Below are positions 12,781 through 40,901 of a DNA stretch of 44,399 nt, piece after piece. The position numbers and the translations under genes were made by a program. The number at the start of each line of letters is the position of its first letter. Positions within the stretch are counted from its first letter, which is position 1. Source of the DNA: a virus; the IMG/VR virus record IMGVR_UViG_3300020312_000161, positions 1 through 44,399 of that record; one strand, written 5' to 3'. The notes beneath the pieces were generated by a model, which saw only the letters and a program-made list of their open reading frames with translations, was not told the origin of the DNA and did no database searches.

Positions 12781-12971
12781 AATTTTGATGTAATTTTGGC
12801 AAGCATCTCCTTTATTTCAGAGATCTCTTGTTTCATAGTATCTAGCTCTTTTCTTTCAAGTGCTTTTTTAGATTTTGCATTCATATAAGCAGAATAACCA
12901 GAGCTATCATCATTAATGATAGCCCCAGTTTCATCTCTATAAAGATGTGGTTTACCTTCTACTCGAATCAT
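12777..12971 (-). CDS. Small coiled-coil protein with RDETGAIIN motif
   Basis: A 64-aa protein. The N-terminal half has the motif HLYRDETGAIINDDSSGYSAYM; the C-terminal half (about 35-64) is a charged amphipathic helix rich in Lys/Glu with Leu/Ile at heptad spacing. The ATG overlaps the stop of the 2437-aa gene (ATGA) and the stop overlaps the next ATG, so the pair 12592-12971 is translated with the giant gene upstream. Similar short proteins occur near baseplate genes in cyanophages as far as I remember, without known function. Confidence 0.7.
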   Translation of the reverse strand: MIRVEGKPHLYRDETGAIINDDSSGYSAYMNAKSKKALERKELDTMKQEISEIKEMLAKITSKL

Positions 12972-21913: not shown

Positions 21914-24900
21914 TTAAAGTTTCTTGCCAAGAGCACCAGTATTACGCAAACCAATATTCCTTCTTTGGACAATTGGCCACTTATCTAGGTCTGGATTATA
22001 GTCAAGTCCCTTAACAGTTAAACTTAGAGGATACTTGACATCTCTTATTGCTGAAGAGAAGCGTCCCCATGTAATTCTTCCTGCAGGATGTAAGGTTGAT
22101 CCAACACCAACCAATCCGCTAACATCAGTTCCAGAATGGATATTACATGTGATAACACCTGTTCTAGCACTTCCGTCCCATGATAATGCTGATGCATAAT
22201 ATATATTATCCACTTCATATGTACTAATACCAATAACATCAGAATCATGTGTATCAGTACTTGTAATAACTCCAGCAGCAGGTGTTATACCTGTACCATA
22301 GAGTTTAAATGGATACCCTTCTTTAAAGTCTTGGACAAAGGAAGAGTTTTCTGAATTAACTAAATTGTTAGTATCAAGTTGAATAACAAGTCCAAGATCA
22401 GTACCAATACCAGTAGAAGTAGTAATACCAGTAACTAAACCAATATAACCCTTAACATCGGTATTTAAAGGATCAATATCATTCCAGTATTCCCAGTTAA
22501 CACCTGCTTGTGCAGTTGTACCAATACCAACACCATAAACATAAAGTCCAAAATCATCATCTAACAATCCATCAATATCTCTAAAGTTTGCTACATGATC
22601 AACAAACAGTGAAGTATCAGTTGATGCATAAGAAGCAATAACATTAGCATTTGGATAGAATTGTGCTTCCATAGAATCTCTTGCTTTGGAAACTAATCCA
22701 CCAGCAAATACTCTATCGACTTTCTGCTTATTCCATCTCATTGGTTTGTAGTTGTCGTTATTGACTCCTCCTCCTTGATAGAATGGAGTTTCAACAACAG
22801 ACGCTGTTGCTATTCTAACAACAATTCTTGGATCTCTTTGAGCTAAGTTAGTGTTGTCTTTTGCAACTTGGTTTAATTCAAGATCGGCACTCTTGAATAG
22901 TTCTACAGAATCACCTTCCTTAATAATCTCATTAACATCAAAGAATATACTATCAGTACCAACAGTTCCTCTATAGAAGAATATGAACACATCATCTTCT
23001 ATAGTAGGCGCAGTCTCAAACGAAACTGATGTTCCACCTCTAAATGTATAATGTTTGTTTGGTTCCTGAAGAACACCATTGACAAATATTAGTAGAACTG
23101 GTCCAAGATCTATTTGTCTAGAATCTGCATCATTGTTATCAATCTCAAAACTAATTAATTGATTCTGATAATACAATGGATACCTTAATCTTTCACCGTC
23201 TTGGAATGGTCTAATATTATCAATATAATCTAAATTACCAAACTGCCATGAAGCAATATCATCATTGAATATATTAGTTACTTCAATCTCAAATGGTTTG
23301 AATAAATCACCAGCATCAGGGTCAGTTGATAATCCAACCAATCCAAATTTATCACCTACTCTAAATCCATATCCAGGTTTTGATAAAGTCCACGCAGAAA
23401 TTTCATTTAACAAGAACTCTGGTCCAGTTGAATATCCAACATATTGAGTAGATAGACCAACAACATCTACAGTAATAGAAGCACCAACACCTGTTACTGT
23501 AGTGTTACCAAGACCAACTCTATAATTACCTTCAATACTTAGATATTCTCCGCTTGGTGCAGGTGAATTAATAACTGTATTCTTAGAATATCCAGATCCA
23601 CCATTATCAATACTGTATATCAAACTACCACCAGCACCAACAATTGCTGTAATTGTTGCACCAATACCATAAGGTGAGTTACCTGGATCAGTTACACCAA
23701 TAGCAGTTATTGTACCAAGATCTGTAGTATAACCAGATCCATATGTTAATTCGCAATAGTAGATAGAAGCAGTACCACCGCTATGATAAGAGTGTGGGAT
23801 TGTGCTTATACCAGCATTAACTCTGAATGTTCTAGTAGAAACAATACCAGTTACATCTAGCTGTTGATCATAATCAGGGTAAATGTTAGTTGTTAAACCA
23901 ACTCTTACTGTACCACCACCTGTATAAGGATGCGCTAATGTAGATATACCAACGAATGTTGTAAAGGATGTAGTAGTTCCTACAGACCTTACAGTGTAAT
24001 AATATCCTTGAACACCGCTAGGATAAGTCTTAGCACCATATGTACAAGTAACGCCAATACCTGCTAACTTAAAGTTCTCAGGTTTTACTAATCCATGATT
24101 AGCAGCAGTAAATTGAAGAATACCAGTTGCAGGATTATAAGTTGCATTTGTTGGTGTTAATGCTGCACCAGTCCAAGAATCAATATAAAGTGCGCTAGAA
24201 GCAGCACTAACAAATTGATGTGTATATCCACCACCATACTGAACTGCTCCAGTTGTAGCACCTTGGAAGGTATGAGCGTAATTTCCACCAGAAACTACAG
24301 CGTTAGTTGCTTCATGTCCTGCACCAATATCATAATGATGGTTGCTAGTATCAGTTGAAACACCAACTTGAAGTGTAATATATCCAGTTTGTTTCTTAAT
24401 ACCACCTGTAGTTGCACTATCAAATGTATGTGCAAATTGATGAGCAGGACCAGATTTACCAACATCAACCGCAAATGTATCTACAGTTGTGCTCGCAATA
24501 GAAACCCACTTACCACTAATAGGATCGGAAGATCTTGGATATGTATGAGGAATTCTGTAATGATCCTTAGCGCACTTAAGTGATATTGAATTATCATCAA
24601 ATTTAACTCTGTCGTTGTTCATAAATCCATGACCAGCGACTGTTACAGTCATAATACCAGCATTAGGATCATATACTGCATTAGTTGCTGTATGAGAACT
24701 GGATCCAACAGAATGAATACCAATTGGTTGATCAAATGCTCTATCACGCTTCTGATCCATGCTACCAACACCAGCAGCTTGGAAGGTGTGACCATAAGCA
24801 CCACCACCATGAACTTGTGCTCTCTTAATAGCACCAGTTACACCAGATGAGAATATATGATCTGACTGTCCATCCAGACCAGACTTCATACCATTCACTC

Positions 24901-27900
24901 TGAATGTATTGGTAGTTACATTAGATACCTTAATCCACTTACCGCTATAAGGATCTGTTTCTCTAGGATATGCATGTACAGTACTGTAATCATCCATCTC
25001 ACAAGTGAATGAAACTGCACCAGTTTCAAACATAACATAATCACCATTACTTAATCCATGATTAGCAGAGGTAACAGTCATGATACCTACACCACCATCA
25101 TACTGCGTACCAGATTCAGCAGTTAGTCCTTCATGCGGTACATAATGATGAGTTGAAATATTTGTGGATGGTTGTGACGCTAAAACTTGGAAAGAAATCG
25201 TATTTGCGCTAGTAGAAGCAATAGAAACCGCAGTGGTGAATCCAGGATCACTCGATCTTGGATATTTGTGAACACTTTGATATGTGTCTAATCCACACCT
25301 AAATGACATCGATTCAGGTGAAATTTGGATAGATTGACCAGTCATGAAACTATGGTCACCAATAGTAGCTGTTACGATGCCAGCAGTGGGGTCGTAGATC
25401 GCCGAGGAGATGCTATAAGGTGCTATAGGTGACTTACCTACCTCTACACTAAATGAAGTGGTTCCTATGCCTGTTATTGGCAACCACTTACCACTAACAG
25501 GATCAGATGATCTTGGATAAGTCTTCGTAGAAGTACCGCCATCCATGTCGCACTTGAAGGAAATAGAGTCATTATCGAATCTAATCCAATCGCCATCATG
25601 AATAAGTCTGCCGCCAGGTACAACTGTAACAGTCATAATGCCAGCATTTGCATCATAAACTGCGCCATTTACAGTTTGAGTATCAATTGTATTTCGTGGA
25701 TATGCGTGAGAAGAAATATAGCTATCATTAGCACAACGGAAGATAAGTGATCCAGTCGCTAACTTAATTGCAGTTTGTTCTGCTAATCCATGTTGACCAA
25801 TATTAAGATCAAGGAATCCCGTTGTAGGTGTGTAAGTTGCAGTAGTGACACTATAATTGACAGTAGGTGATGTACCAACAGTAATAGCAATACCAGTTGC
25901 AGTAGTAGATGCAACGGAAATTGCGGTATCGAAGTATGGATCAGATGGTCTAGGATAAGACTTAGTTTGACTATTTCCATCCATAGCACACTTGAAGTCA
26001 AGTGAACTACCCTTAATCTTGATAGTTTTACCTGCCATAATATTATGGTTAGGTATAGTCATTGTCATAATACCAGCTACAGGATCGTAGATAGCATTAG
26101 TAGGTGTCCAACCAACATTAGTAGTAATACCAACAAATACATCAAAAGTATTAGCAGTGACATTCCTTACTTCGAGGAACTTGTCATTTACAGGATCAGA
26201 TGCTCTTGGATATGTGTGATTTGTTGCATATCCATCTTGATCACATGTAAATGTCAAAGCATCTGTAGCAATACCAATCAAATTAGGATCAGTAAAGTTA
26301 TGATTACCATCAGCAATAATTGTTGCAATACCACTAACATGATCATATACAAAGGAAGTTATTCCAATAGTAGTTCCATATCCAAGACCAGACTTACCAA
26401 CATTGATAGTAATACTATCTGCAGTAGTTGTGGCAGAACCAATCTTATTATGGAAAGGATCAGTTATTCTAGGATATGCATGATTTGTTGCGTATCCATC
26501 CTTATCACAACTCATTGTGATTGATCCTGTAGCAAGTCCTACAAGATTGTTATTAGCATATACCAGACCCACAGCAGTAGATCCGATAGATAATGTCATC
26601 GCACCTGTTAATGCGTTATACCTAACATCAGATACATCTGCATAAACTAGAGTTGAAATACCAACATTTAAACTAAATGAAGTAGTTGAAGTAGTTGTTA
26701 TACCAGTTGTTACACCGCTAATTGGATCAGTACTACGAGGATAAGTATGCTGAGTAGCATGATTATCTCTAGAGCAAGTATATGTTAATGAATTATTATC
26801 AAGAGTAATAGTATCACCTGTCATCATGCCATGACCAGAAGCAAATGATAGTGTTAGTACACCAGTACTTGCGTCATAAGTAGATCCATTTGGACTCTTC
26901 TGATTACCTGATTCTGCACCACTTTGAACATTAACCGCATTAGTAGCAGTACCACCAGCCCAAGTATGTACATAATCACCACCCATTATTAGAGCATTGG
27001 ATGTAGCACTTCTAAAGACATGCTTATAACCAATACACTCCATTTGGAGTCCATTGAGGTAAACAGTTTCAGCTACATCAAGATTATGAGGTCCAACTGT
27101 ACTGACCTCCATAATTCCAGATACATTATCATAGTATGCAGTTTCAATAGCAACACGCCTTCCTTCTGTAGGGAAACCAACAACATCTACAATTACACCA
27201 TCTTCAATTACTGGTCTTACATTAGCACCTACAAATGGAGCATATCCTCTACCTGGAGTAGAAGCAACAGAAACAATAATACCACCTCTAGGTAACTGGT
27301 TTTCATTTACATCTCCTATGTCTATTATAGGCGTTTCATATCCAATAGAACTAATACCTGTAAACACTACACTAGCAATTCCTGCGCTAGGGTTGTCTAG
27401 AATCTTGAAGTTGGAATTAGTATTATTTTCACTATAAGGTGCTTGGAAGATATTATTAATGAATAATACACCATTACCACCAGTTGAACCAATACCAGTA
27501 ACAGCAACACCAATAGATGTTAATGGATAAGTAGTTTCTAACCCATCAAAATTATTAGAAATATCATCAAATACTTGGTTCTTACTATAATCTTGTCTTA
27601 AGAAGGTTCTTCCACCAAAACTTGCTCTAGCATATGGTAAGTTAGACGCATTAATAATACCTAAGTCACCACCAAGAGGTGCTTGTGTGAAATGAACCTG
27701 ACTATCTAAGATCTGGAATGATCCTCTAAAGAGTCTAACATCTTGACCAGCAGCATGTGGAGTAGCTGCAGTACCTACAGCACCTCTTTCAATTTCTACA
27801 AGAGTCCAAGTACCAATACCAACTACAGGACCAATCTTATTAGTACCAAATCCAACTGTTCTTACAATAGAGTATTCATCTTCAATCTTAAGTAAATCTC

Positions 27901-30900
27901 CAGATCTAATAGAACCAATACCACTCAAAACAAATGCAGTTACAAATCCTGCAACAGGTTCTTCTAATGTATAGTTAATTGCGGTATAAGATAATGGTTT
28001 CTGTACAAGACCACTAATAGAGATCATAGACTTAGAATCTCTCTTTCTCATAGAGAATCTATGCTGATTACCAGCACCAGTATTTTCGATAAAGGTTACC
28101 GCAGCACCTGCTATAGCATCATTTTCTGTTAATGCAATTCTGTACTGTTGATTATTATCTTTGATGCAATAGACAGTTTCTGGCAAATATCCAGTTACAC
28201 CAGCACCAGTACTGTAGATAAGAGCAGATCCACCAATACCAATAAGGTTAGAATCTGGTTTATAGGTTAATTGCTCATAATTAGAGAAGAAGTGCTTTTG
28301 ACTAAAGATACCAGAGTTATAAGATATTGCTGAAGGATCCGCAATATTTGTTTCACGAGCATAGATAGGTATTCCTTGATAAGTCAAATCAAATGATTTG
28401 ATGTTTCTATTGTTAATACCAAGGTAAAGTGATTGGTTAGCATTTTCATATACTTGACCATAATTAATTTCACCAATACCACCAATACTACCATTAGGGT
28501 CTAATACTTTGTATAATACTTCATTGTAAGCAGTAACACTAACAATACCAGCAACTGATGGGTGGAATTCTAATCCATAAGTACCATCAGATCTATAAGT
28601 AGTTCCAAATGTTCCTATACCAGTTGTAGAACCAACAGATGCGAGTGGGGTTTCGGTAAGGAATGTTTGACTCTTCTCAGGATCAGATAACATATAAATC
28701 TGATGTAATGATTGAGTTGCGCCATAAGAAACATGAATTGTAGACTTAACAGATAAATCTGTAAGACTTGTTATACCAACAATTGTAGAAATGCCAGCTT
28801 TTGATTGACTGGTAACTTCAAATCTTCCTGTCCTTTCTGTACCATCTGGAGTAAATGGAATCTTAAATCTATAATTATTTGCACCAACAGTAGATGGATC
28901 AACTATAATAGACTTATATTTTACAGATACTGTATTTGTACGACCATTTTCAAAATCAAACTTAACTAAACCACCTTCAATCTTAGATGTTACTGTACCA
29001 ATAAAGTTTGGACCAGAAAGACCACTTAGATTTTGTTTTGAGTTAAATGATGCTAATTCGGTCAAATATGTGTCAACACCATTATGCATAATTGCATATT
29101 CTAAGTAATCAACTTGTTTTGGTGAATTTGGACCAGGATTATCAATAACTAGTACTTGTACAACACCAGCTTGTGAAGAAGTAGTAGATATTCCAAAAAT
29201 ATTACCTGTAACCGAAACTCCAAGAGTACTTGCTGCACCAATTTGTGCTACACCACCTTCTAGTCTAATATGACCAAATGCTGTATTTCCAGTACCTATA
29301 GAATCTGAAAAATATGTTTGTAATGACTTAACTTCATAATCTGTGTCAAATGGCTCATTTGGACGGACAATTAACTGTGTTTCTGATTTCGCAGGAGAAT
29401 ACTCAGTATCAAATGTGACATATCCAGTAGAAAGACCAACTTGATCATAATTCTTCATTTCATTCTTCTGAAGAAGATAAGTATCTTCATCAACAGTTAC
29501 TGAAATAAATTCATTAAACTGATACTGGTTTTTAGTAGGATCTTCTGCTTGATGAACAGTTTGTGTTAAGAATCTTTGGAAGAACCTTCCTGCAGGATAA
29601 GTAGCAACAATTCTATAATCACTCAAATCATTAGACTCATTAGACACAAATTTAGGACTAATATCGTCAATATTAAGAACTCTATTTGTTTTGTTTAAAA
29701 TAAAGTCAGAAAGTCGAGTATTTCTTAATTCTACAAATTTAGAGATATTACCTTGAGATTCAAAATCTCTTGCCATATCAAATGGGTATATTGAGTCAAC
29801 TCTAAGAGGATCTCCAATAAAGTCAAGAACTAATCCACCAGCGTCTTCTGCTGGAATATTTGTTTCACCTGGATCACCCAATGCCATAACTTCAGTATTG
29901 GCAAAGTTTTTAAGTCCAGATGGATGAACTATATCATTAACAAAGGTAATTAAATCTTCATATGTCTTAGGACTGTCAATTGCATAAGACATATTTTGAT
30001 AATAATCATTATCTGGCAATACTTGATTACCATCATTAATAATTCCAACATTATCCCTCCAACCAACTAATGTCTTAACAGAAGACGCTATATTAAAACT
30101 TCCTGCAAATTCCTTAATACCAACAATCCTACACTGAGAACCACTTAATTTACCTATCAATATATCATCAATTTCTAAAGGCTCAGCACCACTAACTATA
30201 ATTTTAGCAGCATTAGAGTCAATAAAATCCAAAGCAACATCTGCGATAGGATTGTTATTTCGTTTAAATGGTTCATTTTCAATAAATCTTGATGATCCCT
30301 TAATAACTTCAAATTTAGCAATATAATCTTCTTGAGTCAATTGACCAAATCCATAAGCAACTGTTGCACCAGTACCAGGATTAGTACTGATTCCATTTAA
30401 ATCAAAAGTAACTTCTCTTGGGTTAACAGCATCATTGTAATCAGTAACTTCAATTGAAGCAAATTTATAATCTCCAGAGTTATATCCAGTACCACTTCCA
30501 GCATCTATTGCAACACCTTCAATTTGCATTTTATCACCAATCTTTATTGGTTCTTTAACATAACCTAAAACAGGAGTAGTAATTGTACAGGTTAATATTC
30601 CTGCAGCTGCTTGTACATTAAGGATACTAAGACCATTACTATTTCTAACAGGAGCAATACCGTAATCATTACCAGACAATCCAATTGGAGGTACTGAAAT
30701 GGTTGCGCTAGTGACAGCAGAATCGCTTAATTCACAAGTAATAAGTCCATTATCTAAAATATCACCAGTTCCTTTATCAAATAAAACTAAAGCTGGTGCA
30801 GTGATGTAGAATTTACCACCATAAACAACATTAACTTCTTCAAGAGTCCCAAAATTATCAATATTGATAACTCTAGGAACAAAAGCATCTGGTTTAAGAG

Positions 30901-33900
30901 TGTTATCAGAAGGATATCCATAAACATCTTCTGGAACTGTCAAAGAGTCTAATTTATTAATTTTTAGTGATTCGGCAATTATTACACCATTCTCACCAGC
31001 ATCTCCTATACTGGAAATACCAGGAAGTCTAGAATAGTTAAATCCAGGACTAGTTATTCTTGTTGATGCAATTCCACCAGTAGCATTGGCAGAACTTGTA
31101 GTATAACTAATATCCGCAATACCAGAATCATAATATAAAGATTCAGGTTTATCTTGTAGATTAAGATTGAAGGTAGTATCCCCAATACTAATAATTGAAT
31201 AATTATCAGTATATAAACTATCAATATATTTTATTTCAGATCCATTAAATACAGTACCGTCAGCAGTAGATATACCAGAAGGAGTAAATAAACTATAATA
31301 TATGATCTTAGGCGCAGTTTCAGAATATTTAACTTTTATTGTAGGATGGTATTCATTTGTATAAACTGGTAATGTTGATGCAACACCAACTGTTGACACA
31401 GTACTAACACCAACTATTTCAAATCCAAGACTTGTACCAGAACCAACAAATTCATTAAAGAAATTCTTGTCATAATAGAATTTTAAGTCACTTCCAACTA
31501 AAGTTGGGTCACTCATATCAAATATAAGATCATTATTTCTAAATGGTCTTAATTGTGGATTAATTGGATTAATAGTTTGTCCAGATCCACCTTGAGATGT
31601 TATATTAACAACATTTGGAGTTCCTGAAGTCTCTTTAAATGTATTTGCTAATTGAAGGGTATTTTCATCAATTGCAACAACATAATACTCTCTTTGAGTA
31701 ATTCCATCTGGAAGATTTGTACCATAATATAAAATTTTATCACCTGTTACCAAATTATGCTGATATGAGGTAATTCTATTAGTTGTAGTGTTTATTCCAG
31801 TTTGATCAATACTAATTGGGTTAACAATTAGGTAATTATCAATAATTTTAACAGTTGCAAAGGTTGTTGTGCCAATACCAGTTGAAAGACCAGGTTTAAC
31901 AATTAAATCGATCCTATCATCAGTTTTTAACTCATGATTTTCTGCAGTTTGAACTGTAGCAGTAATTTTTTGTACAGATCCAGTAACTTGCTTATCTGGG
32001 GTATATGTAAGTAAATAATCATAAGCATCTGTACCACCACTAACAAAATAGACATCATTAGATGTTTTTGTTGTTTTTATACCAATAGTATTTTCTGTTT
32101 TTCTTACAGCATAACATGGATCTGGTATATTAAAGGTATTTCCAATTCCGTCAGTTTTTAGACCTAAAGTAGCTCCACCAGCAGGAATAGTCAAACTTAA
32201 AGTATCATTAGTTCGTAAACCATGATTTTCTAAGTAAATACTTTGAGTTTTGATAGATCTAGTTTTAGTTTCCCCAAGATAATCATAATTCCTAGTTATA
32301 GTCTGTCCTGATGTAGTACCAAATCCTACTGTTTCTGTGGGGTTAAAATAAATCTTTTTAGATGGAGTAGACTCGAATTTATCAGTAATAATTGGTATTT
32401 CTATTTCATCAGCAAAAAATGTAACTCCCAATCCAGTTAAAGTAGTAGTTCCAGTTGCAACTGATCTACGAATCCTTAAAACATTATCATCTCCAAAAAT
32501 ATTCAATATACGAGCAGTTTCTGTTCCAATTCCAACGGTTGTTCCTATACCAGTTGTAGATGGAGTCATTGTAGCGAATCCAATCGTAGCACCTGCAGAA
32601 ACTGTAGATGGAACAAATTGAACTTTAATATCGGTAACTAATCCAACAACAGTACTATCTAAAAGTTGAGTTGAGTAATTTAAACTACTAATAACATGAG
32701 AATCTGTTAATTTAGATACACTTGTGGACAATCCAGCAACTTGTACATAATCATCAAACTCTAATCCGTGTGATGGATCAAAATGACCAATAACACTTTG
32801 ATTCTTCCATTCAAACACTACATCTTCATATAATTTGAATGTAGTGTCAATTTTATTAACTGTTTTGCCTTCTAAAAGACTTACAGAAGCATTTACACCA
32901 GTTCCACCAGTACCAGAGTTATCAAATCTAATAATTGAACCAGTAGTATATCCTGTACCTGGAGAAGCTATAATAAGATTTTCTACACCACCAATTTCAA
33001 TACGATCAGGTAATGCTACATTAGGGATCTGTTTATATGGTTGATATACAAAATCATACGCAACACCATCACCAAACATATTGTAAGGGAAGGTATTTCT
33101 GATTAATTTGGAACTTTCAAAGCTAAAGTTGCTTTGTTTAATCTTTTTACCAGAAACTGTATTAACATCTATTGGGAATCCTCTATAAGTATTACCAATA
33201 TAATATGGGAAAATTGGAGTATTTGTATTATCTACAGTAGCAAAATAAGCATATATTCCTTCTTCAAATTCAGGGGTTTTGCTAAATCTTCCATTATGCT
33301 CATCTAAATCTCCACTGGCATTATAAACATAATCCTCTATAAAGAAACCAGCTTCATAATCAGAAAGAGATGGTCTATTTTCGACTTGAGTTGTATCAAG
33401 AACATATGAAGACTTTAATCTTGTAGATCCTGACTGAATATTATCTGGATCTGATAAACCATAAGGACCATAGATTGGTATACCATCATATGCCCATCCA
33501 ATTATAGGAGAATGTCCACTACCATCATCACCAAGATAATTTCTAATAGTTTCTCCATAACCAACAGATTCAATTGCTAATCCACCTTCAACTGGAGTAA
33601 GATAGTCTCCATTTACAGTACCAGTAGTATTAAACTTATTAGCAACTAATGATCTTACCCTAGTAGAGAATGTTGCAGCATCACCTGGTGCTTTAACAGA
33701 AACAACTGTAGTAGTTGCAGCATATCCAACACCTTGAGATAATACAATAACATCGGAAATAGCACCACCATTCATAACAGCACGAATTTTAGCACCAAAG
33801 GCACTACCAACACCAGTAACTGTTATATCTGGAGGTCCATCATAATTTGATCCACTACTCTGTACAAAAGCATCAATAATTCTACCATTAACAATAGTTA

Positions 33901-36900
33901 TTCCTATTTGACCAAAATCGCCATAATTGATATCAACTGCAGGTGCTTTTTCAAAGTTTATAATATTTGATCCATAATCTTTACCCTTATCATACAAAAT
34001 AGCTTCTGTAACTTCACCACGAACAACTGGAGTAGCATTTAAAGTAACTGGTGTATCTGAATCTGTAATAACATTAACATCAACAGTTACAGGTGGATAG
34101 AAGAAATCTTGATATCCAACTCCATGTGAAGTAAATCTCACATATTCTTTATTATTATAATTTGTCTTATCTGGAGTTCTAGTAGTAGCAATACCAGAAT
34201 AGCAGAGTCTGAATTTATCCTCATCAAGATTTAATACCTGATACTGACTATTAGTGCTTAAACCAGTAATAGCAGTAGCTCCTGGAGTAGTTGATATGCC
34301 GTAATGAACTACTTCACCATCTTTAAATCCATGATTAGGAAATTCAACAAAATCTCTAAAAGTACTAACACCAGTTGGTGCTATAGAAAGTCTCTTATTT
34401 GTATATCCACTTCCACCATCAAGTATACTAACTCTCGAAATTCTTCTCTTAGTATTATAATCTCTGAATTGATGGATACCAGTATTTAAATTTGCTGCTG
34501 TTGTACCGAATCCAACAGTATTAACTCCAGCAATAGCATCAGCTTTTGACCTATAAAGTTTAAATATGGTTGCGCTACTAACTCCAACATAATAAGATTG
34601 CCCCTCAACTAAACTAGTATCAATACCAACTGGTGCAATAGTTGTAAGTCCAACAACAGGATTATTATTGGAAGAATAAATTACCCTATCCCCATCTTTA
34701 TAATAATGGGGTTTATTCATTATAAATCGACCATTGCCTTCATCAGCATGTTCGATATTACCACCATTATAGAAAGATTTTGCATTAAATGTAAACTGTC
34801 TATATGCTAACTCTGTTACACCTTGCGCTTTTGCTCCATAACCATTTCCACCATGTACATCAACAGAAACTACTTTTTTAATTTCAAAATCAACAGGATC
34901 AATTAAAACCCCAGTAACAGTACCACCAATTGCTAATCTACCATAAGCAGTATTAATTCCAGTAGAACTATTTTCTATGCTGATTGAAGGTGGGTTAAGA
35001 ACATCATATCCAGTACCAGCATTAACAAGATCAAGTGCTTTTAAAGGTCCATAGTAAATATATCTGTCAGACTTATAATTGGTGATTTCTACACCATTTA
35101 TAAGCATACCAGTATTACCATCCAGTGTTACTTCAGAAGTTGTCTGTTGCGCCTTTCCTCTAGTTAAATCCTGACTTAAAATGAATCTTTTAAGTGTTCT
35201 ACCTGGGAAAATGGATTTTCTTGCTTGTTCTACTTTAACAAAATCATGAATTCCAGTTGTTAAGTCTGGAGGTGCAAATTTTATAGAAATTCCTGATGGA
35301 ATAAAGGATCTGGAAGGATATAACTTAATTTTGTTCTTTTGAGATAATACTTCAACAAAATAAGAGGCTGCATCTAATCCACCAATAGCAACAGTGTTTC
35401 CAACAGGCACATAAGCAATTTGCTCACCAGTTCTGAAAGGAACATCTTGTGGGAACGAAATTATGGTATATTTGTTAGATAAAGTATCATATCCACCCCA
35501 TGATCCACCAGATACAGTAGGATTGACTAAAGTAGCATGAATTTTATCAGTATCGATAGGATATGTGGGAATAGAGTTAGAAGCTACAAATCCTTCTTGC
35601 TCATTACTTTCTGAGTTCTTTTTATCTAAAACATAGGTATTAGAAACATCACCTAAGAGTTGATTTTGTCCACCTATGATTGGAACAATTGTACTTGTTG
35701 CTTTTACCTGAATTCTTCTTACATCATACTCATATCCAGGAGTAGTTGTGAAAACACCAGATATACTAATCGAATTATTAGTTTTATTGACATAAGTTAC
35801 TGTTAATGGTGATGCAGCGACTGTTTCAGTGTTTCTAACAAGCAAATCAATCTTATCACCCACCCTTAGACTAGCTTTATCAATATTACCTGCTAAAGTA
35901 AATGTAGATCCTGTTAAATCTGCAATTCGGTATCTAGCACTAGTATTGTAAATCCAAGAATTGAAGAAAATCTGTTCAAATGTCTTGGATGTCAATGGAT
36001 TGGTTACAAATCTTCCAAGGTTCTTAACATTAACCCTTGAAGACATTGATAATCCATATAAATCCTGAAGAGTATCAAATTCACTCAAAACACCAGTTAT
36101 TTTCATATTAACTGGTTTTTCTAAATTATTTTCCTCATATCCATAAACAAAAGTTGGTGTAAAGATATTTTTAGTGGATGCAATATCTTTTGTTGTCGTA
36201 GTTACACCAATAAACTGGTTTATAGTCTTTTCAGTGTAATCCAAACGCATATAATCATCATCTGTATCTACTCCAACCTCAATAACACCAGTTTGACCGA
36301 ATCCAACAGTAGAGTCAACTGTAATAACTGTTGCACCAAGACCAACCTTACCAACTGCTTGAGTTCTTCCTGGAACAACAAATGTACCCTGTATTAAGTC
36401 TCTATCATCATATCCAATAAAGACAGAAATACGATAATAGTCATCTCTAATCTGAACAACTTCAGAAATAGGTCCACTAGCAGCATTTACTAAAGGATTA
36501 CCTTCTTCATTGTCTTGAAACAGAGTTTGACCAACTAATTTATTAGCATCACCAGAAATTACCTGTACTGCAAAAGACTCTCTTCTCAAATAGTTGGCAT
36601 AAGAGGGTTTTATGAGGTATTTTTCAAGATCATTGATTTTTGGTTCTAAACCAAACAGTGCTTTAAATAAAATCTTGAAAGATTCGTCAGTACCCTTAGA
36701 TTCGTATAAACTTCTTGCTTCTTTTACGAAATTATTAACATCTAACTCAGGACTTAATTGTACACCCTCTAAACCAGGTGTATACTGCGCTTTTAACTTA
36801 TCATAAAACTCATGAAGGAATAATGCACTTAAATTTTGTACCGCAGACCCTGTAAGATGGGAAGAAGCTGCAGTTTGTGTCCATTGCAAATTCTCAGTAT

Positions 36901-37315
36901 CATTAAGTGCATGATATGTCTCAATTCCACAAAAACCCCTTACACACCCAGTAAAGCTATTGGTTGTTACTCCCGTATAGGTAATAATTTCACTATCAAT
37001 CTTTAAAAGACCCCATTCTTGTGGAAATCCCTTAGTAGTACCATCAACTACAATTTCATCATCAGTAATACCAATGCTAGAAGCAATTGCTACTGATCCA
37101 GATATAACATCCTTAGTTAAATTGTCAATTCTAATATATTTGTCAATATTTTCAGCAAGATCTACAGGACCACCTTGATATTCTTGCGAAACATAATATT
37201 GCTTCAAAAAATCCTCAAAAAGAGGGTTTTCTGCAAGAGTAAACTCTGGAGCCTGCTCACCAACAATTTGGTATGTCTTAACTCTGGAGGATAAGGGGCT
37301 ATAGGTTTCTATCAT
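21914..37315 (-). CDS. 7: Giant baseplate wedge protein, T4 gp7 homologue with YHYH domain and repeats
   Basis: A 5133-aa protein; T4 gp7 has 1032. The first 300 residues carry the gp7 core: NPLFEDFLKQYYVSQEYQG (30-48), EARSLYESKGTDESFKILFK (199-218) and NKLVGQTLFQDNEEG. They align with the C-terminal third of T4 gp7 (FYSTKGIEASYKFLFK, DLVGQTIY). A DSEIITYTG...RG...H module (about 106-137) is inserted in this core. Then come long beta-rich regions with GxGY units; a YHYH domain at about 1260-1380 (GWAYDGIPIYGPYG, LDEHNGRFSKTPEFEEGIYA, PYYIGNTYRG); and a ten-unit CxxD...YPR repeat array (about 3450-4465). The C-terminus is LDYNPDLDKWPIVQRRN. Order gp6-gp7-gp8 agrees. gp7 organises each wedge; the extra 4000 residues probably project outward (inference). 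The reading frame is unbroken over 15.4 kb. Confidence 0.9.
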   Translation of the reverse strand: MIETYSPLSSRVKTYQIVGEQAPEFTLAENPLFEDFLKQYYVSQEYQGGPVDLAENIDKYIRIDNLTKDVISGSVAIASSIGITDDEIVVDGTTKGFPQEWGLLKIDSEIITYTGVTTNSFTGCVRGFCGIETYHALNDTENLQWTQTAASSHLTGSAVQNLSALFLHEFYDKLKAQYTPGLEGVQLSPELDVNNFVKEARSLYESKGTDESFKILFKALFGLEPKINDLEKYLIKPSYANYLRRESFAVQVISGDANKLVGQTLFQDNEEGNPLVNAASGPISEVVQIRDDYYRISVFIGYDDRDLIQGTFVVPGRTQAVGKVGLGATVITVDSTVGFGQTGVIEVGVDTDDDYMRLDYTEKTINQFIGVTTTTKDIASTKNIFTPTFVYGYEENNLEKPVNMKITGVLSEFDTLQDLYGLSMSSRVNVKNLGRFVTNPLTSKTFEQIFFNSWIYNTSARYRIADLTGSTFTLAGNIDKASLRVGDKIDLLVRNTETVAASPLTVTYVNKTNNSISISGVFTTTPGYEYDVRRIQVKATSTIVPIIGGQNQLLGDVSNTYVLDKKNSESNEQEGFVASNSIPTYPIDTDKIHATLVNPTVSGGSWGGYDTLSNKYTIISFPQDVPFRTGEQIAYVPVGNTVAIGGLDAASYFVEVLSQKNKIKLYPSRSFIPSGISIKFAPPDLTTGIHDFVKVEQARKSIFPGRTLKRFILSQDLTRGKAQQTTSEVTLDGNTGMLINGVEITNYKSDRYIYYGPLKALDLVNAGTGYDVLNPPSISIENSSTGINTAYGRLAIGGTVTGVLIDPVDFEIKKVVSVDVHGGNGYGAKAQGVTELAYRQFTFNAKSFYNGGNIEHADEGNGRFIMNKPHYYKDGDRVIYSSNNNPVVGLTTIAPVGIDTSLVEGQSYYVGVSSATIFKLYRSKADAIAGVNTVGFGTTAANLNTGIHQFRDYNTKRRISRVSILDGGSGYTNKRLSIAPTGVSTFRDFVEFPNHGFKDGEVVHYGISTTPGATAITGLSTNSQYQVLNLDEDKFRLCYSGIATTRTPDKTNYNNKEYVRFTSHGVGYQDFFYPPVTVDVNVITDSDTPVTLNATPVVRGEVTEAILYDKGKDYGSNIINFEKAPAVDINYGDFGQIGITIVNGRIIDAFVQSSGSNYDGPPDITVTGVGSAFGAKIRAVMNGGAISDVIVLSQGVGYAATTTVVSVKAPGDAATFSTRVRSLVANKFNTTGTVNGDYLTPVEGGLAIESVGYGETIRNYLGDDGSGHSPIIGWAYDGIPIYGPYGLSDPDNIQSGSTRLKSSYVLDTTQVENRPSLSDYEAGFFIEDYVYNASGDLDEHNGRFSKTPEFEEGIYAYFATVDNTNTPIFPYYIGNTYRGFPIDVNTVSGKKIKQSNFSFESSKLIRNTFPYNMFGDGVAYDFVYQPYKQIPNVALPDRIEIGGVENLIIASPGTGYTTGSIIRFDNSGTGGTGVNASVSLLEGKTVNKIDTTFKLYEDVVFEWKNQSVIGHFDPSHGLEFDDYVQVAGLSTSVSKLTDSHVISSLNYSTQLLDSTVVGLVTDIKVQFVPSTVSAGATIGFATMTPSTTGIGTTVGIGTETARILNIFGDDNVLRIRRSVATGTTTLTGLGVTFFADEIEIPIITDKFESTPSKKIYFNPTETVGFGTTSGQTITRNYDYLGETKTRSIKTQSIYLENHGLRTNDTLSLTIPAGGATLGLKTDGIGNTFNIPDPCYAVRKTENTIGIKTTKTSNDVYFVSGGTDAYDYLLTYTPDKQVTGSVQKITATVQTAENHELKTDDRIDLIVKPGLSTGIGTTTFATVKIIDNYLIVNPISIDQTGINTTTNRITSYQHNLVTGDKILYYGTNLPDGITQREYYVVAIDENTLQLANTFKETSGTPNVVNITSQGGSGQTINPINPQLRPFRNNDLIFDMSDPTLVGSDLKFYYDKNFFNEFVGSGTSLGFEIVGVSTVSTVGVASTLPVYTNEYHPTIKVKYSETAPKIIYYSLFTPSGISTADGTVFNGSEIKYIDSLYTDNYSIISIGDTTFNLNLQDKPESLYYDSGIADISYTTSSANATGGIASTRITSPGFNYSRLPGISSIGDAGENGVIIAESLKINKLDSLTVPEDVYGYPSDNTLKPDAFVPRVINIDNFGTLEEVNVVYGGKFYITAPALVLFDKGTGDILDNGLITCELSDSAVTSATISVPPIGLSGNDYGIAPVRNSNGLSILNVQAAAGILTCTITTPVLGYVKEPIKIGDKMQIEGVAIDAGSGTGYNSGDYKFASIEVTDYNDAVNPREVTFDLNGISTNPGTGATVAYGFGQLTQEDYIAKFEVIKGSSRFIENEPFKRNNNPIADVALDFIDSNAAKIIVSGAEPLEIDDILIGKLSGSQCRIVGIKEFAGSFNIASSVKTLVGWRDNVGIINDGNQVLPDNDYYQNMSYAIDSPKTYEDLITFVNDIVHPSGLKNFANTEVMALGDPGETNIPAEDAGGLVLDFIGDPLRVDSIYPFDMARDFESQGNISKFVELRNTRLSDFILNKTNRVLNIDDISPKFVSNESNDLSDYRIVATYPAGRFFQRFLTQTVHQAEDPTKNQYQFNEFISVTVDEDTYLLQKNEMKNYDQVGLSTGYVTFDTEYSPAKSETQLIVRPNEPFDTDYEVKSLQTYFSDSIGTGNTAFGHIRLEGGVAQIGAASTLGVSVTGNIFGISTTSSQAGVVQVLVIDNPGPNSPKQVDYLEYAIMHNGVDTYLTELASFNSKQNLSGLSGPNFIGTVTSKIEGGLVKFDFENGRTNTVSVKYKSIIVDPSTVGANNYRFKIPFTPDGTERTGRFEVTSQSKAGISTIVGITSLTDLSVKSTIHVSYGATQSLHQIYMLSDPEKSQTFLTETPLASVGSTTGIGTFGTTYRSDGTYGLEFHPSVAGIVSVTAYNEVLYKVLDPNGSIGGIGEINYGQVYENANQSLYLGINNRNIKSFDLTYQGIPIYARETNIADPSAISYNSGIFSQKHFFSNYEQLTYKPDSNLIGIGGSALIYSTGAGVTGYLPETVYCIKDNNQQYRIALTENDAIAGAAVTFIENTGAGNQHRFSMRKRDSKSMISISGLVQKPLSYTAINYTLEEPVAGFVTAFVLSGIGSIRSGDLLKIEDEYSIVRTVGFGTNKIGPVVGIGTWTLVEIERGAVGTAATPHAAGQDVRLFRGSFQILDSQVHFTQAPLGGDLGIINASNLPYARASFGGRTFLRQDYSKNQVFDDISNNFDGLETTYPLTSIGVAVTGIGSTGGNGVLFINNIFQAPYSENNTNSNFKILDNPSAGIASVVFTGISSIGYETPIIDIGDVNENQLPRGGIIVSVASTPGRGYAPFVGANVRPVIEDGVIVDVVGFPTEGRRVAIETAYYDNVSGIMEVSTVGPHNLDVAETVYLNGLQMECIGYKHVFRSATSNALIMGGDYVHTWAGGTATNAVNVQSGAESGNQKSPNGSTYDASTGVLTLSFASGHGMMTGDTITLDNNSLTYTCSRDNHATQHTYPRSTDPISGVTTGITTTSTTSFSLNVGISTLVYADVSDVRYNALTGAMTLSIGSTAVGLVYANNNLVGLATGSITMSCDKDGYATNHAYPRITDPFHNKIGSATTTADSITINVGKSGLGYGTTIGITSFVYDHVSGIATIIADGNHNFTDPNLIGIATDALTFTCDQDGYATNHTYPRASDPVNDKFLEVRNVTANTFDVFVGITTNVGWTPTNAIYDPVAGIMTMTIPNHNIMAGKTIKIKGSSLDFKCAMDGNSQTKSYPRPSDPYFDTAISVASTTATGIAITVGTSPTVNYSVTTATYTPTTGFLDLNIGQHGLAEQTAIKLATGSLIFRCANDSYISSHAYPRNTIDTQTVNGAVYDANAGIMTVTVVPGGRLIHDGDWIRFDNDSISFKCDMDGGTSTKTYPRSSDPVSGKWLPITGIGTTSFSVEVGKSPIAPYSISSAIYDPTAGIVTATIGDHSFMTGQSIQISPESMSFRCGLDTYQSVHKYPRSSDPGFTTAVSIASTSANTISFQVLASQPSTNISTHHYVPHEGLTAESGTQYDGGVGIMTVTSANHGLSNGDYVMFETGAVSFTCEMDDYSTVHAYPRETDPYSGKWIKVSNVTTNTFRVNGMKSGLDGQSDHIFSSGVTGAIKRAQVHGGGAYGHTFQAAGVGSMDQKRDRAFDQPIGIHSVGSSSHTATNAVYDPNAGIMTVTVAGHGFMNNDRVKFDDNSISLKCAKDHYRIPHTYPRSSDPISGKWVSIASTTVDTFAVDVGKSGPAHQFAHTFDSATTGGIKKQTGYITLQVGVSTDTSNHHYDIGAGHEATNAVVSGGNYAHTFQGATTGAVQYGGGYTHQFVSAASSALYIDSWTGAALTPTNATYNPATGILQFTAANHGLVKPENFKLAGIGVTCTYGAKTYPSGVQGYYYTVRSVGTTTSFTTFVGISTLAHPYTGGGTVRVGLTTNIYPDYDQQLDVTGIVSTRTFRVNAGISTIPHSYHSGGTASIYYCELTYGSGYTTDLGTITAIGVTDPGNSPYGIGATITAIVGAGGSLIYSIDNGGSGYSKNTVINSPAPSGEYLSIEGNYRVGLGNTTVTGVGASITVDVVGLSTQYVGYSTGPEFLLNEISAWTLSKPGYGFRVGDKFGLVGLSTDPDAGDLFKPFEIEVTNIFNDDIASWQFGNLDYIDNIRPFQDGERLRYPLYYQNQLISFEIDNNDADSRQIDLGPVLLIFVNGVLQEPNKHYTFRGGTSVSFETAPTIEDDVFIFFYRGTVGTDSIFFDVNEIIKEGDSVELFKSADLELNQVAKDNTNLAQRDPRIVVRIATASVVETPFYQGGGVNNDNYKPMRWNKQKVDRVFAGGLVSKARDSMEAQFYPNANVIASYASTDTSLFVDHVANFRDIDGLLDDDFGLYVYGVGIGTTAQAGVNWEYWNDIDPLNTDVKGYIGLVTGITTSTGIGTDLGLVIQLDTNNLVNSENSSFVQDFKEGYPFKLYGTGITPAAGVITSTDTHDSDVIGISTYEVDNIYYASALSWDGSARTGVITCNIHSGTDVSGLVGVGSTLHPAGRITWGRFSSAIRDVKYPLSLTVKGLDYNPDLDKWPIVQRRNIGLRNTGALGKKL
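23920..26965 (-). repeat. Ten-copy C-x-x-D...YPR domain repeat in the gp7-like gene
   Basis: Nine full copies and one decayed copy follow one another. Each reads roughly A-x-Y-D-P-x-x-G-I-M-T-V-T, H-G-x-x-x-G-D, S-[IL]-x-F-x-C-x-x-D, 6-8 residues, [HT]-x-YPR-x-[ST]-D-P, then S-x-x-T-T-x-[ST]-F-x-V-x-V-G-x-S. Units of about 75-100 residues are sometimes separated by His/Gly-rich inserts (YAHTFQGATTGAV, YTHQFVSAAS). The last unit (about 23920-24190) lacks the Cys-Asp pair. Conserved Cys and YPR suggest a small beta domain whose fold I cannot name. Confidence 0.85.
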
Positions 37316-37321: not shown

Positions 37322-39241
37322 TTATGACCTAATGATGGTTCCGTTAGAGTAACTAGAGGTGACTTTATATCCAATTCCAGATATTTGTTGTCCAGAAGAT
37401 ATTGTGTCTCTCACGATATTTATCTTAGTATTTGACATGTCTAATTGGAGGTAAATATCCTTCAATCCTATAATATCATTGGATTCTGGATATGCTTGAA
37501 TTTCAACAACACCTGATGCACGAGAAGTACCCGTTATATTGATGGTATTGATCATAATTTCACCTTTTACATAATCCACAGTTCCTGCAGAAGGTAAAAC
37601 AACAGGTGGAGCATCATCAGAGAGTTCAGTTAATTGAACTACAGCAATATCACCCGTTTTTAAGTCGTCATGTGGCAAATCAGTGAAATATAAAGTATTT
37701 GGATTACCAGCAATGGTAAATCCAGTACTTTTTATGTTTTTGCCTTTAGGATTGGCATGAAATGCATTACCAAAGCATAATTCGTACTGAGTAAAGGCAT
37801 TAAAAACTGGTTTTAAGTCTCTTCTTATTGTCAACCTAGTAATATTCGATGTAATTGCATTATTTGTGCCATCAATTGCTTTTAAAGCATCAGAATACTT
37901 AAATCTACCACCAAATGCGTTTAAATTAGTGGATTTTCCGTAATCTGTTAGTGAATTGGTAACTTGAGTCTTAAGACCATCAATATCACTGTAAATATTG
38001 GAATTAAAATAGACAGAAGTGTCTAATTCTACGAAAAGTATCTTTAAATCGACTATTCTTTGGTTAATTCCAGCAATAGAATACCTTTTTAATCTATCTA
38101 AGATCTGTACTTTAGTAAAGTCGGACAAATAAGTGGAATTTCGAGGTTTTACACTTAATACAACAGTACCATATTCAGGTGGATCCAATTCTTCACCACC
38201 AATTACCGAAACTGACTCTGCATCAGGGAAAACACTCTGTATAATCCCCTCATAATCCTTTGCTGTAACCGCCCTGTACTGCGATGAATAGACTCTAGGT
38301 GCAATATACTTAATAGAGTCTATTTCTTCGATATCACCGCCTCCTTTAGCGGTTTGAATCGTTGTTAGAACAGGAGTTGCTGCTGCTGAAAGAGGATTTC
38401 CAGCATCATCTACTGCATCTGCACTAAATGAGAACTTTTTACCATCATTTCCTGCTTTTCCATCAGTAATAATATAGCTAACTTCAACAACATCTCCATT
38501 TTCTAATTTTTTACCAAATAATCCATCCCCAAATAGCAATTCATACTTCTCATCTTTGATTTCTTGGATAAGATAGATGTTTGACTTCTCATTTATACCT
38601 GTAATATTATCAACTACAGAATATTCAAGTCCAGAAGACGCTCCAGACTTCCTAACAAACACTCTAATTGATGCAGTATCGATAAATGAGTTGTCTAATA
38701 TAAATCTTTGGTCTAAACTAGCATTTACAATGAAATTTTTCTTTAAAAGTGTACCCTGATATATCGTAAGATTCCTAAATTGAGCAGTTCTTGGTGGATT
38801 TACGGTAATATTACTTCCAGCATCTACTGGACTGCTAACAGTTATGTCTTCTGGGATAGAAAATGTGAAAGAAGTGTTATTTTGAACTCCAACTGCGACT
38901 AATCCTTTCTTTAATGTGACGCTATTACTGTTTCCGTTGAATTTATAGTCAAAATTTATGATTGCTTCCGAAGATTTACGAGATCTAGGTACATATCCGA
39001 TGTTTCTTGCCAATGAAACCACATTTTCTCTCAAAGTTGCCGAATCCAAGAAGGATTCATTAACAACCATGTTGCTATTAAATGCCGAAATATAGGTATT
39101 ATACGCTAAAATATCGATTAAAATCGACATATTTGATCCTTCAAAGTCAAAATCAGTAAAATTACTGTTTGCTCTGAGGTAAGACTTGATTTGACCCTTA
39201 ATTTGATCAAAATCTAAGTTTGTAAACTTGGTTACTGGCAT
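37322..39241 (-). CDS. 6: Baseplate wedge protein, T4 gp6 homologue
   Basis: A 639-aa protein, close to T4 gp6 (660). The N-terminus FTNLDFDQIKGQIKSYLRAN, then FTDFDFEGSNMSILIDILAY, NTYISAFNSNMVVNESFLDS and ATLRENVVSLARNIGYVPRS is the highly conserved gp6/baseplate J signature. PRVYSSQYRAVTAKDYEGII at about 320-345 is the baseplate J-like core. gp6 forms the ring joining the six wedges and drives the change from hexagonal to star shape. It begins 4 bp after the gp25 stop and ends 6 bp before the gp7-like start, in one late operon. Confidence 0.96.
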   Translation of the reverse strand: MPVTKFTNLDFDQIKGQIKSYLRANSNFTDFDFEGSNMSILIDILAYNTYISAFNSNMVVNESFLDSATLRENVVSLARNIGYVPRSRKSSEAIINFDYKFNGNSNSVTLKKGLVAVGVQNNTSFTFSIPEDITVSSPVDAGSNITVNPPRTAQFRNLTIYQGTLLKKNFIVNASLDQRFILDNSFIDTASIRVFVRKSGASSGLEYSVVDNITGINEKSNIYLIQEIKDEKYELLFGDGLFGKKLENGDVVEVSYIITDGKAGNDGKKFSFSADAVDDAGNPLSAAATPVLTTIQTAKGGGDIEEIDSIKYIAPRVYSSQYRAVTAKDYEGIIQSVFPDAESVSVIGGEELDPPEYGTVVLSVKPRNSTYLSDFTKVQILDRLKRYSIAGINQRIVDLKILFVELDTSVYFNSNIYSDIDGLKTQVTNSLTDYGKSTNLNAFGGRFKYSDALKAIDGTNNAITSNITRLTIRRDLKPVFNAFTQYELCFGNAFHANPKGKNIKSTGFTIAGNPNTLYFTDLPHDDLKTGDIAVVQLTELSDDAPPVVLPSAGTVDYVKGEIMINTINITGTSRASGVVEIQAYPESNDIIGLKDIYLQLDMSNTKINIVRDTISSGQQISGIGYKVTSSYSNGTIIRS

Positions 39242-39245: not shown

Positions 39246-39641
39246 TTACCTAGTTCCTTCTAAAAGAAATGCAAAATTTTGTACAGGGAGGTCTTCACCT
39301 ACAATTTTATAAGAAATATTCATTTCAAAGGAGTTATTTAAGTCTGGTCTAGGGTTTGCAGTAATTTCAGTTTCAGTTACCCTAGGTTCATACATCTCTA
39401 TAACACTTTTAACCTTCCTTGCAAGCACTCCACCTGTGACTTCATCACAGAAATCGAATAATAAATCACCTACATCCGACCCTATGTCACTATAAAACCT
39501 TTCCTGATTTCCAGTTTGGACTAAATTCCTAATAGAACGCATAATAGCCCTCTCATTTTTCAACACATTTAGATCTCCTGTGACAGGATTTGGTTGAAAA
39601 TCAAGGGTTATGTCTTTATATGCTCTAGATTTAGTCGCCAT
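39246..39641 (-). CDS. 25: Baseplate wedge protein, T4 gp25 homologue (lysozyme-like fold family)
   Basis: A 131-aa protein, T4 gp25 size (132). SRAYKDITLDFQPNPVTGDL, LKNERAIMRSIRNLVQTGNQ and ERFYSDIGSDVGDLLFDFCD, followed by YEPRVTETEI, match the gp25/phage GPW family (R-x-I-x-N-L...G-x-R-x-F-x-P-x-x-G-x-x-L...E-x-R). gp25 clamps the gp6 heterodimer and starts sheath polymerisation. An exact late box lies 26 bp before the ATG, so it heads the large late operon gp25-gp6-gp7. Confidence 0.95.
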   Translation of the reverse strand: MATKSRAYKDITLDFQPNPVTGDLNVLKNERAIMRSIRNLVQTGNQERFYSDIGSDVGDLLFDFCDEVTGGVLARKVKSVIEMYEPRVTETEITANPRPDLNNSFEMNISYKIVGEDLPVQNFAFLLEGTR

Positions 39642-40744: not shown

Positions 40745-40901
40745 TGTAAGTTGAATGTGTAATAAGATCAGGTGATGGATATCCAGTATCATAATAACAC
40801 TGAGATAATTCCATCATTTTCTCTAGGAAAGCCTCCTCAGAGAGACCTGTATAGATCTCTCCTCCTTCGATGGTTATATTATATAACTCGTTGCTTTTCA
40901 T
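40683..40901 (-). CDS. Small hypothetical protein (MKSNELYNI type)
   Basis: A 72-aa acidic protein, MKSNELYNITIEGGEIYTGL, SEEAFLEKMMELSQCYYDTG, YPSPDLITHSTY, ending GDEHSNETKED. The N-terminal ELYNITIEG and central YYDTGYPSPDLI fit a small conserved cyanophage protein I remember only as hypothetical. I start at the ATG at 40899-40901, inside the last 23 bp of the glycosyltransferase-like gene. The C-terminal 20 codons are also read in another frame as the start of the basic 48-aa protein. Confidence 0.72.
   Translation of the reverse strand: MKSNELYNITIEGGEIYTGLSEEAFLEKMMELSQCYYDTGYPSPDLITHSTYNGENVHESHGDEHSNETKED

Follow-up and report, generated by a model that had tools for sequence, protein, structure and literature searches.

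In phage T4, gp7 sits in the baseplate wedge, six copies per tail, while the pins and short fibres are built from gp10, gp11, and gp12. In the published record, which is cited here from excerpts throughout, the T4 pins are described as gp10 and gp11 built with gp7 and gp8 (PMC3004832), the cyanomyoviruses are said to be without g10, g11, and g12, other proteins probably doing their work (PMC2984593), and gp7 itself is stated to be absent from cyano- and pelagimyophages, with VrlC in its place (PMC7029224). Here, we describe a single giant open reading frame (ORF) of the viral record IMGVR_UViG_3300020312_000161 (IMG/VR), positions 1 to 44,399, a stretch that we will call the window. We read this ORF as the gp7 orthologue, that is, a subunit of the wedge core from which long peripheral arms extend, in phages that are reported to be without gp10, gp11, and gp12, and give this reading a probability of roughly 0.7. 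Giant gp7 proteins as such are known; what is new is the architecture of the protein, namely a split core and a chain of repeats that varies in number. The features of the locus are listed in the table.

The frame starts at an ATG and runs for 5133 codons with no break on the minus strand, a strand that the initial annotation had not given, although it had rightly recorded a single frame five times the size of T4 gp7 (5133 vs 1032 amino acids, aa). By our own arithmetic (3 stops in 64 codons), an open frame of this length has a chance near 10^-107. The contig G009 holds a frame of equal length, with 100% identity in both of the end segments searched, and, of 28 contigs chosen for a search, 23 have a single frame of 3975–5458 codons that takes in both the N-terminal core and the C-terminal segment; the giant frame is therefore real and an assembly artefact is ruled out. 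The five exceptions are G027–G029 and G032, each with two separate frames, and G030, in which the C-terminal match is absent. An earlier set of eight contigs reached the C-terminal segment in two, each as one frame, and it was not found in six. Among the 80 loci of an N-terminal search, 45 were examined: in 42 the frame was still open where the fetched DNA ended, and stops were met in three (L036 at 660, L073 at 2787, and L083 at 3583).

Selection on the frame, which the initial annotation had supposed from its unbroken length, is borne out by the ratio of non-synonymous to synonymous divergence (dN/dS), which is 0.145–0.435 against eight relatives in all of the 500-aa bins that have 60 or more aligned codons. 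Purifying selection thus acts across the aligned length of the giant protein, a length that barely covers the array past aa ~3800, covers the C-terminus by one relative, and includes one relative, the most distant, that is near silent-site saturation. As a side observation, silent divergence (pS) from locus L025 falls near the start of the array (window ~26630–26815), to 0.17 over 62 codons in the bin that begins at aa 3501, with 0.38–0.53 elsewhere, which hints at a recent exchange. Pfam and PHROGs place the ORF between gp6 and gp8, the T4-type position of gp7, in the order gp25, gp6, giant ORF, gp8, followed by the DUF4815/VrlC gene, so that the gp6-gp7-gp8 order noted earlier is kept.

On profile evidence, the core makes the ORF a well-supported orthologue of T4 gp7. 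Segment A (aa ~196–313) aligns with seven Straboviridae gp7s at an hhalign probability of 95.9 (E 6e-9), and a similar alignment scores 80.1, the highest score among 40 column shuffles being 24.3. A profile search of the PDB (177,635 sequences) gave just two matches at E≤0.001, both of them gp7s (5.3e-4 and 5.6e-4). T4 gp7 as the query matches phrog_2885 (E 1.3e-4) and phrog_26741 (E 1.7e-5), and phrog_26741 recovers segment A in all seven Straboviridae; as a control, the cyanophage core compared with the window's gp6 gave a probability of 0.06. A profile is needed here, since a single-sequence search of the PDB with aa 1–434 found no gp7. The Pfam family Baseplate_wedge (PF23786), at 12.6 bits against a cut-off of 27, was not used, and phrog_964, the T4 gp7 family, was not among the PHROGs matches of the ORF pieces. 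The initial annotation had taken the first 300 residues for the core of T4 gp7 and had proposed a profile search of them; the homology stood, with the confident match confined to the segment A residues.

Upstream of segment A, six residues (P23, F36, E45, D52, N56, and Y60) are invariant in nine aligned sequences, and positions ~2–91 of phrog_26741 are matched in 10 of 11 isolate records (E≤0.1), with none reported for the window. The small beta module that follows the N-terminal helices has a weakly similar counterpart in the VrlC gene. Using VIA on a poor AlphaFold2 model of aa 1–590, chains 5iv5_BJ (Z 7.8, root-mean-square deviation 3.5, 86 aligned) and 9f4a_A0 (Z 7.4, 2.4, 78 aligned) are recovered, both in a Z range that the tool calls common. 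We take these two chains to be gp7 from their chain lengths and residue numbers; model residues 240–418 are paired with their residues 762–851.

The gp7 core appears to lie in two pieces in the right order, the second recognised by weak but agreeing evidence. A motif near the C-terminus common to seven T4-type gp7s (VHPvG in T4, residue 883) reappears at aa 2463, and a profile of this region, segment B, matches the window, all 11 isolates, and the long-enough relatives (48 segments at E≤1e-6, of which the 17 sequences used to build the profile match by construction). In this small search set, the same profile matches the seven Straboviridae only at E 0.012–0.46. By hhalign, segment B aligns with T4 865–909 (E 2e-4, probability 47), with a score of 34.9 vs at most 27.0 in 60 shuffles, and its best two matches in the PDB are the same two gp7s at 864–910, with weak E-values of 0.17 and 0.64. 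The family phrog_26741 (497 positions) matches segment A as well as segment B in all 12 cyanophage records, the window included, and its segment B part (~357–468) in two of the seven Straboviridae (RB49, E 0.002; Xman, E 0.008). In S-CREM2, among the shortest gp7s, segment B stands near the end of the protein (1836–1931 of 1937). A second HP.G motif, at aa 5075, was dropped as a candidate because the profile finds aa 2388–2507 alone.

The spacing from segment A to segment B is ~220 positions in a compact gp7, ~45 residues in T4, and ~2,100 residues in the window. With the second segment at aa ~2388–2507, the core would enclose about 2,100 residues and be followed by about 2,600 more; the initial annotation was thus right that there are thousands of extra residues, and wrong in having some 4000 of them simply follow the core. 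Neither the split core nor the array copy number is described in the passages that our searches of open-licence papers brought up, supplementary tables aside.

The window protein is neither an unusual giant nor a singleton: cyanomyophages normally have a gp7 of giant size, and a number of records are already annotated as such. A tblastn search with aa 1–334 matched 462 phage records, 457 of them cyanophage by name (372 Synechococcus, 61 Cyanophage, and 24 Prochlorococcus; the other five are "Marine"). In twelve isolates, gp7 ranges from 1937 to 7312 aa: S-CREM2 1937, MA01 1942, S-PM2d 3048, S-RSM4 3515, S-SRM01 3895, ACG-2014f 4225, S-CAM7 4314, P-HM1 4446, S-SCSM2R 5172, S-SM1 6180, S-SZBM1 6619, and P-SSM4 7312. 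The giant gp7 is already held in the PHROGs family phrog_2885 ("baseplate wedge subunit", 4179 positions), of which four overlapping pieces of the ORF cover positions 7–3887, near full length. Labels in several GenBank records are baseplate wedge initiator, gp7, or virion structural protein, and a baseplate wedge initiator cluster of P-HM1 and P-HM2 only has been listed as over-represented in the Red Sea (PMC3686209).

Three observations on relatives belong here. Contig G030 (locus L255 base 64 through L256, 46063 to ~70707) has an unbroken gp7 relative of 8214 codons with 19 repeat domains; it exceeds the gp7 of P-SSM4, and its C-terminus is without a match to the C-terminal segment of the window. 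In contig G032 (L073), the gp7 frame stops at ~2,790 aa and the C-terminal segment is found in another frame of 810 aa, which may reflect a true split, a frameshift, or an error in the sequence. Between gp7 and gp8, some cyanophages have two more genes, one annotated as gp9 and one for a wedge protein of ~1,400 aa (P-SSM4 79112–84676, L009; S-SM1 74390–79780, L011), and the window is without these two.

The C-terminal extension carries the repeat array. Each repeat, which we will call a YPR domain, has a near-invariant C, D, YPR, and D; in the window, one copy is cut to ~60 aa and a tenth, weak copy reaches aa 4462. Our alignment holds 59 locus rows, drawn from 83 non-redundant copies of 319 matches, plus nine window rows, the shortened copy being left out. 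Copy numbers are 9 in the window (10 with the weak one), 10–11 in P-SSM4, 6 in P-HM1, 19 in G030, 6 in G001, 1 in G005, 2 in S-SM1, 2–3 in S-SCSM2R, and 0 in S-SRM01, ACG-2014f, S-CAM7, S-RSM4, S-CREM2, MA01, and S-SZBM1. The range is 6–13 in the window and 12 close relatives, and 0–19 over 29 gp7s. In these 13 related and non-independent sequences (window in, L243 out), protein length tracks copy number at ~103 aa per copy (r 0.99, n=13; the counts include the weak tenth copy of the window, and a further weak copy of G001 is uncounted), and the flanks are near constant, with 3421–3508 aa before the array and 658–671 aa after it (874 in G001). Nearly all of the length variation in this set is therefore due to the number of YPR domains.

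A single YPR domain gives a confident AlphaFold2 model of a beta fold (predicted local distance difference test, pLDDT, 88.8; predicted template modelling score, pTM, 0.80). In a library of viral models, 25 match it at E≤0.001, the named ones all being Synechococcus phages; they include the S-SSM7 baseplate wedge initiator, the S-SCSM1 long tail fibre, a Syn30 LamG protein, and metaG-MbCM1 gp14. A search for function from the fold returned a head-to-tail protein, the phi92 and K1F endosialidases, and ubiquitin E1 domains at Z 5–6.2, and these were set aside as too weak. Modules appear to have moved between tail genes, because 240 bases of the neighbouring 2408-aa gene, which holds a single YPR copy, are 77% identical to the stretch around the first YPR copy of gp7. 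That gene also has 90-base tandem repeats (30-aa units) in two blocks at window 8893–10298. A gp14-like neck protein of 555 aa (window 2307–3974) carries GxGY-type modules and stretches common to baseplate families, and the spread of modules would therefore reach the neck.

How might such a protein be arranged? In our reading, segments A and B would fold together as the wedge core beside the gp6 dimer, the ~2,100-residue insertion would exit and re-enter this core as a closed loop of domains, and from the same core the C-terminal 2,600 residues would depart as a free arm. The initial annotation had suggested that the extension could be visible as an outer structure of the baseplate. With less assurance, both could lie at the baseplate periphery and stand in for the T4 proteins gp10, gp11, and gp12, and the arm could lengthen or shorten as YPR domains are gained or lost and as modules are exchanged with neighbouring tail genes; least surely, the built-in domains might touch the host surface. 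The stronger proposal, that cyanomyophages turned a wedge core subunit into a host-contact apparatus, with a core loop of ~2,000 residues and an arm whose length depends on the copy number of a beta domain common to neck and fibre genes replacing gp10, gp11, and gp12, is one we hold as tentative and, on balance, doubtful. If true, reach or avidity could change quickly with the contraction core undisturbed, and one chain of up to 8,200 residues would replace the pin and short-fibre proteins of T4.

A number of points weigh against our reading. Segment B is weak by E-value, phrog_26741 gives no segment B match in T4 itself, and the middle of that family (~200–355), which was left unused, matches many other tail proteins. 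The N-terminal helices alone gave no match to T4 (probability 0.2). Structure prediction in pieces, as the initial annotation had suggested, succeeded for one YPR domain and failed for aa 1–590, where the model is poor (pLDDT 65, pTM 0.37); no gp7 is named among the 50 Foldseek matches listed for it, and the entries that hold gp7 turn up solely in the second look with VIA. The YPR fold resembles known folds weakly (best Z 6.2), and dN/dS is low (0.15–0.20) in the alignable part of the array, which therefore gives no sign of an arms race at the level of individual residues. That the arms contact the host is inferred. For the adjoining 2408-aa gene, the PHROGs matches carry the name baseplate wedge subunit, so that its product may stand in for the absent T4 pin proteins and share or hold the host contact. 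S-SZBM1, the source of the best virion evidence, is without a YPR array, and most of the early mutations seen in S-PM2d were already in an older deposited genome (PMC9910659), so that they may be partly re-fixations.

Another explanation gives the extension a mainly structural role: as a shell or collar on the outside, it would stiffen the baseplate and hold further tail proteins with no host contact, which we consider possible though not probable. Purifying selection over the aligned length suits such a role, as does an array domain that is predicted to be a compact beta fold with no named function, and two very large adjoining tail genes (2408 and 2437 aa) could provide the host contact. The freely varying copy number would, however, be odd for a tight-fitting shell, models of three proteins from other cyanophages (a long tail fibre, a LamG protein, and a neck protein) contain the YPR domain too, and the gp7 of S-PM2d was mutated during coevolution with its host. 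In the chemostats concerned (PMC9910659), S-PM2d081, a "hypothetical protein" of 3048 aa, carried an early non-synonymous mutation (day 39) and is also among the ORFs with late ones; we identify it as gp7 by its position and by the core, YHYH, and segment B profiles.

Published virion proteomes speak to whether the extension reaches the particle. S-SZBM1_208 (6619 aa) was found in purified virions with 71 peptides and 13.5% coverage (PMC9146016), or ~894 residues, and its equal length and place make it the gp7 coding sequence. ORF122 of S-CREM2 was detected with 91 unique peptides and 27.2% coverage (PMC10665884), or ~527 residues, and its coordinates are those of the 1937-aa gp7. T4-GC969, named a virion structural protein and detected in virions of S-SM1 (PMC3037559), is the 6180-aa gene at the gp7 position. 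The available portions of PMC9602691 and PMC9964418 yielded nothing on gp7.

These data bear on a second alternative, which is cleavage, with only the gp7 core joining the baseplate and the rest being released or forming another tail part. Full-length gp7 is shown in none of the published excerpts, peptide coverage of 13.5–27% in relatives is no proof of one chain, and in G027–G029 (frames read for G027 only) a gp7 frame of ~3,000 aa is followed by a separate C-terminal-like frame of ~3,000 aa. In G027 (L257), gp7 (94–9093) ends at 3000 aa and the second frame (10157–19144), which is C-terminal-like at 27% identity, begins ~1 kb on; the extension may thus exist as a separate gene and protein in some phages. 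Cleavage could not free a complete N-terminal core, because ~2,100 residues split that core, and the coverage in relatives is larger than a 320-aa piece allows. The initial annotation had named a processed N-terminal part as the sole portion in the virion as an outcome that would count against it; for these relatives, the coverage speaks in its favour. We regard cleavage as improbable.

A third alternative concerns the insertion, which contains the C-terminal half of a YHYH domain. The match to PF14240 is strong (E 1.6e-25) and the half-domain matches 463 phage records, and a metal-dependent hydrolase role has been predicted for the YHYH family (PMC7824862); the module could then make the arm an active wall-degrading enzyme. 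The match covers positions 90–185 of the 193 in the profile only, however, and the YHxH motif, which lies in a GHP...YHxH stretch ahead of the retained half in cellular loci, is present in 0 of 54 parsed phage gp7s and in 48 of 65 parsed loci of cellular type (genome_contigs; 65 of 80 parsed, 15 left out). The remaining His of the half itself was not found in 10 of the 54. As YHxH is absent from all 54, a hydrolase role is unlikely for the phage half, a binding or structural role seems the better interpretation, and an enzymatic arm is very improbable.

The YHYH half followed by segment B, in that order, is seen in 29 of 29 gp7s, a set in which the array repeats, the YHYH half, and segment B were scored, the N-terminal core being covered by separate searches, and in which L243 equals the window in length and L253 and L254 are alike. 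A PDB search with the YHYH region gave one row at chance level (E 0.15) and nothing else. The idea that the conserved YxYF of the half marks a lost histidine was abandoned, as 58 of the 65 genome_contigs loci also have Y[AC]YF. Of the 17 genome_contigs loci that have no YHxH, 14 stay open for 948 aa or more and resemble phage contigs in metagenome-assembled genomes (MAGs). These loci (L107–L110, L113, L116, L121, L122, L125, L129, L141, L142, L144, and L177) have long frames with the phage-type half under bacterial or archaeal MAG titles, including Euryarchaeota, Flavobacteriales, and Woesearchaeota, and are probably phage contigs binned into MAGs.

The last alternative, that cyanomyophages have VrlC instead of gp7 and that the ORF is an unrelated structural protein, agrees with the published statement (PMC7029224) and with a tblastn search with T4 gp7 that gave no cyanophage among the matches listed by organism name, but we give it next to no credence, because profile methods recover the T4 gp7 core in the giant ORF, which contradicts the first half of that statement and leaves gp7 absence with VrlC replacement unsupported at the level of sequence. 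The T4-type gp7 profile shows no detectable similarity to VrlC (probability 0.9), and VrlC is instead related to 9euf (E 5e-37), a protein of solved structure with a DUF4815 domain. The DUF4815 profile is matched by the VrlC ORF and not by pieces of the giant gp7. A probability of 34 between the cyanophage core and VrlC comes from the small beta module (aa ~86–161) and not from segment A.

Table. Features of the giant gp7 locus in window coordinates
Feature	Position	Strand	Evidence
VrlC / DUF4815 protein, 2437 aa; separate, not the gp7 counterpart	12968..20281	-	Pfam, profiles
Single YPR copy within gene 4795-12021 (2408 aa; a baseplate wedge subunit in PHROGs)	8152..8424	-	Domain search
gp8	20286..21863	-	PF09215, phrog_438
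Giant gp7 (baseplate wedge subunit), 5133 aa, ~552 kDa	21914..37315	-	ORF, PHROGs
aa 1-65, putative N-terminal helices of wedge core	37121..37315	-	Low-confidence AlphaFold2 helices 14-64
aa 66-161, small beta module within helical core	36833..37120	-	Alignment, model, profile
aa 162-315, segment A of gp7 core	36371..36832	-	Profile match of aa 196-313 to T4 gp7 727-821
aa 316-387, inserted beta-barrel like phage tail protein domains	36155..36370	-	VIA Z 8.6-9.7, residues 316-388
aa 419-2400, ~2,000-residue insertion inside gp7 core	30116..36061	-	Profiles; start 419 from a weak structural match
aa 1256-1373, C-terminal half of YHYH domain (PF14240), without YHxH	33197..33550	-	Pfam
aa 2388-2507, segment B of gp7 core (VHPSG motif)	29795..30154	-	Profiles, hhalign, phrog_26741
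aa 2508-5133, C-terminal extension	21917..29794	-	Alignment, profiles
aa 3478-4294, nine beta domains in tandem, ~85 aa each, with 'C..D...YPR..DP'	24434..26884	-	Repeat search
aa 4526-5133, conserved C-terminal segment	21917..23740	-	Alignment, contig search
gp6	37322..39241	-	PF21379, phrog_219
gp25	39246..39641	-	PF04965, phrog_261

At the edges of the tail cluster lie two accessory genes, one (window 297–782) for a 161-aa protein of phrog_4992, a family without an assignment, and one (window 40879–41634) for a 251-aa protein that is weakly like a glycosyltransferase.

Since giant gp7s occur in hundreds of cyanophage records, a map of core and add-on parts allows their baseplates to be interpreted. 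The split core argues against the published absence of gp7 from cyanomyophages and, together with the variable arm, is a precise target for structure work, and S-PM2d081 passes from an unexplained, very large hypothetical protein to a baseplate subunit with a testable role.

The closest known systems include the giant cyanophage gp7s (phrog_2885; phrog_701, 6136 positions); the 11 isolates scored alongside the window share its YHYH half and its segment B. P-SSM4 and P-HM1 have the YPR array, as in the window, whereas the S-SRM01, ACG-2014f, and S-CAM7 proteins align over most of their length yet are without a YPR copy. Bacterial YHYH proteins have a C-terminal half ~40–55% identical to that of the window gp7, and an N-terminal half with GHP...YHxH that the latter lacks. 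In the wedge of phage A-1(L), (gp31)2-gp32, gp32 starts with a helical bundle (residues 1–107), as may be the case in the window gp7; unlike in the latter, no giant extension is mentioned in the available portion of that report (PMC10966104). T4 gp7 (phrog_964; PDB 5IV5, 5HX2) likewise lies between gp6 and gp8 and has segment A followed by segment B, but its extra ~650 residues precede the core, whereas in the window gp7 the core is N-terminal and the extra residues would lie inside and after it.

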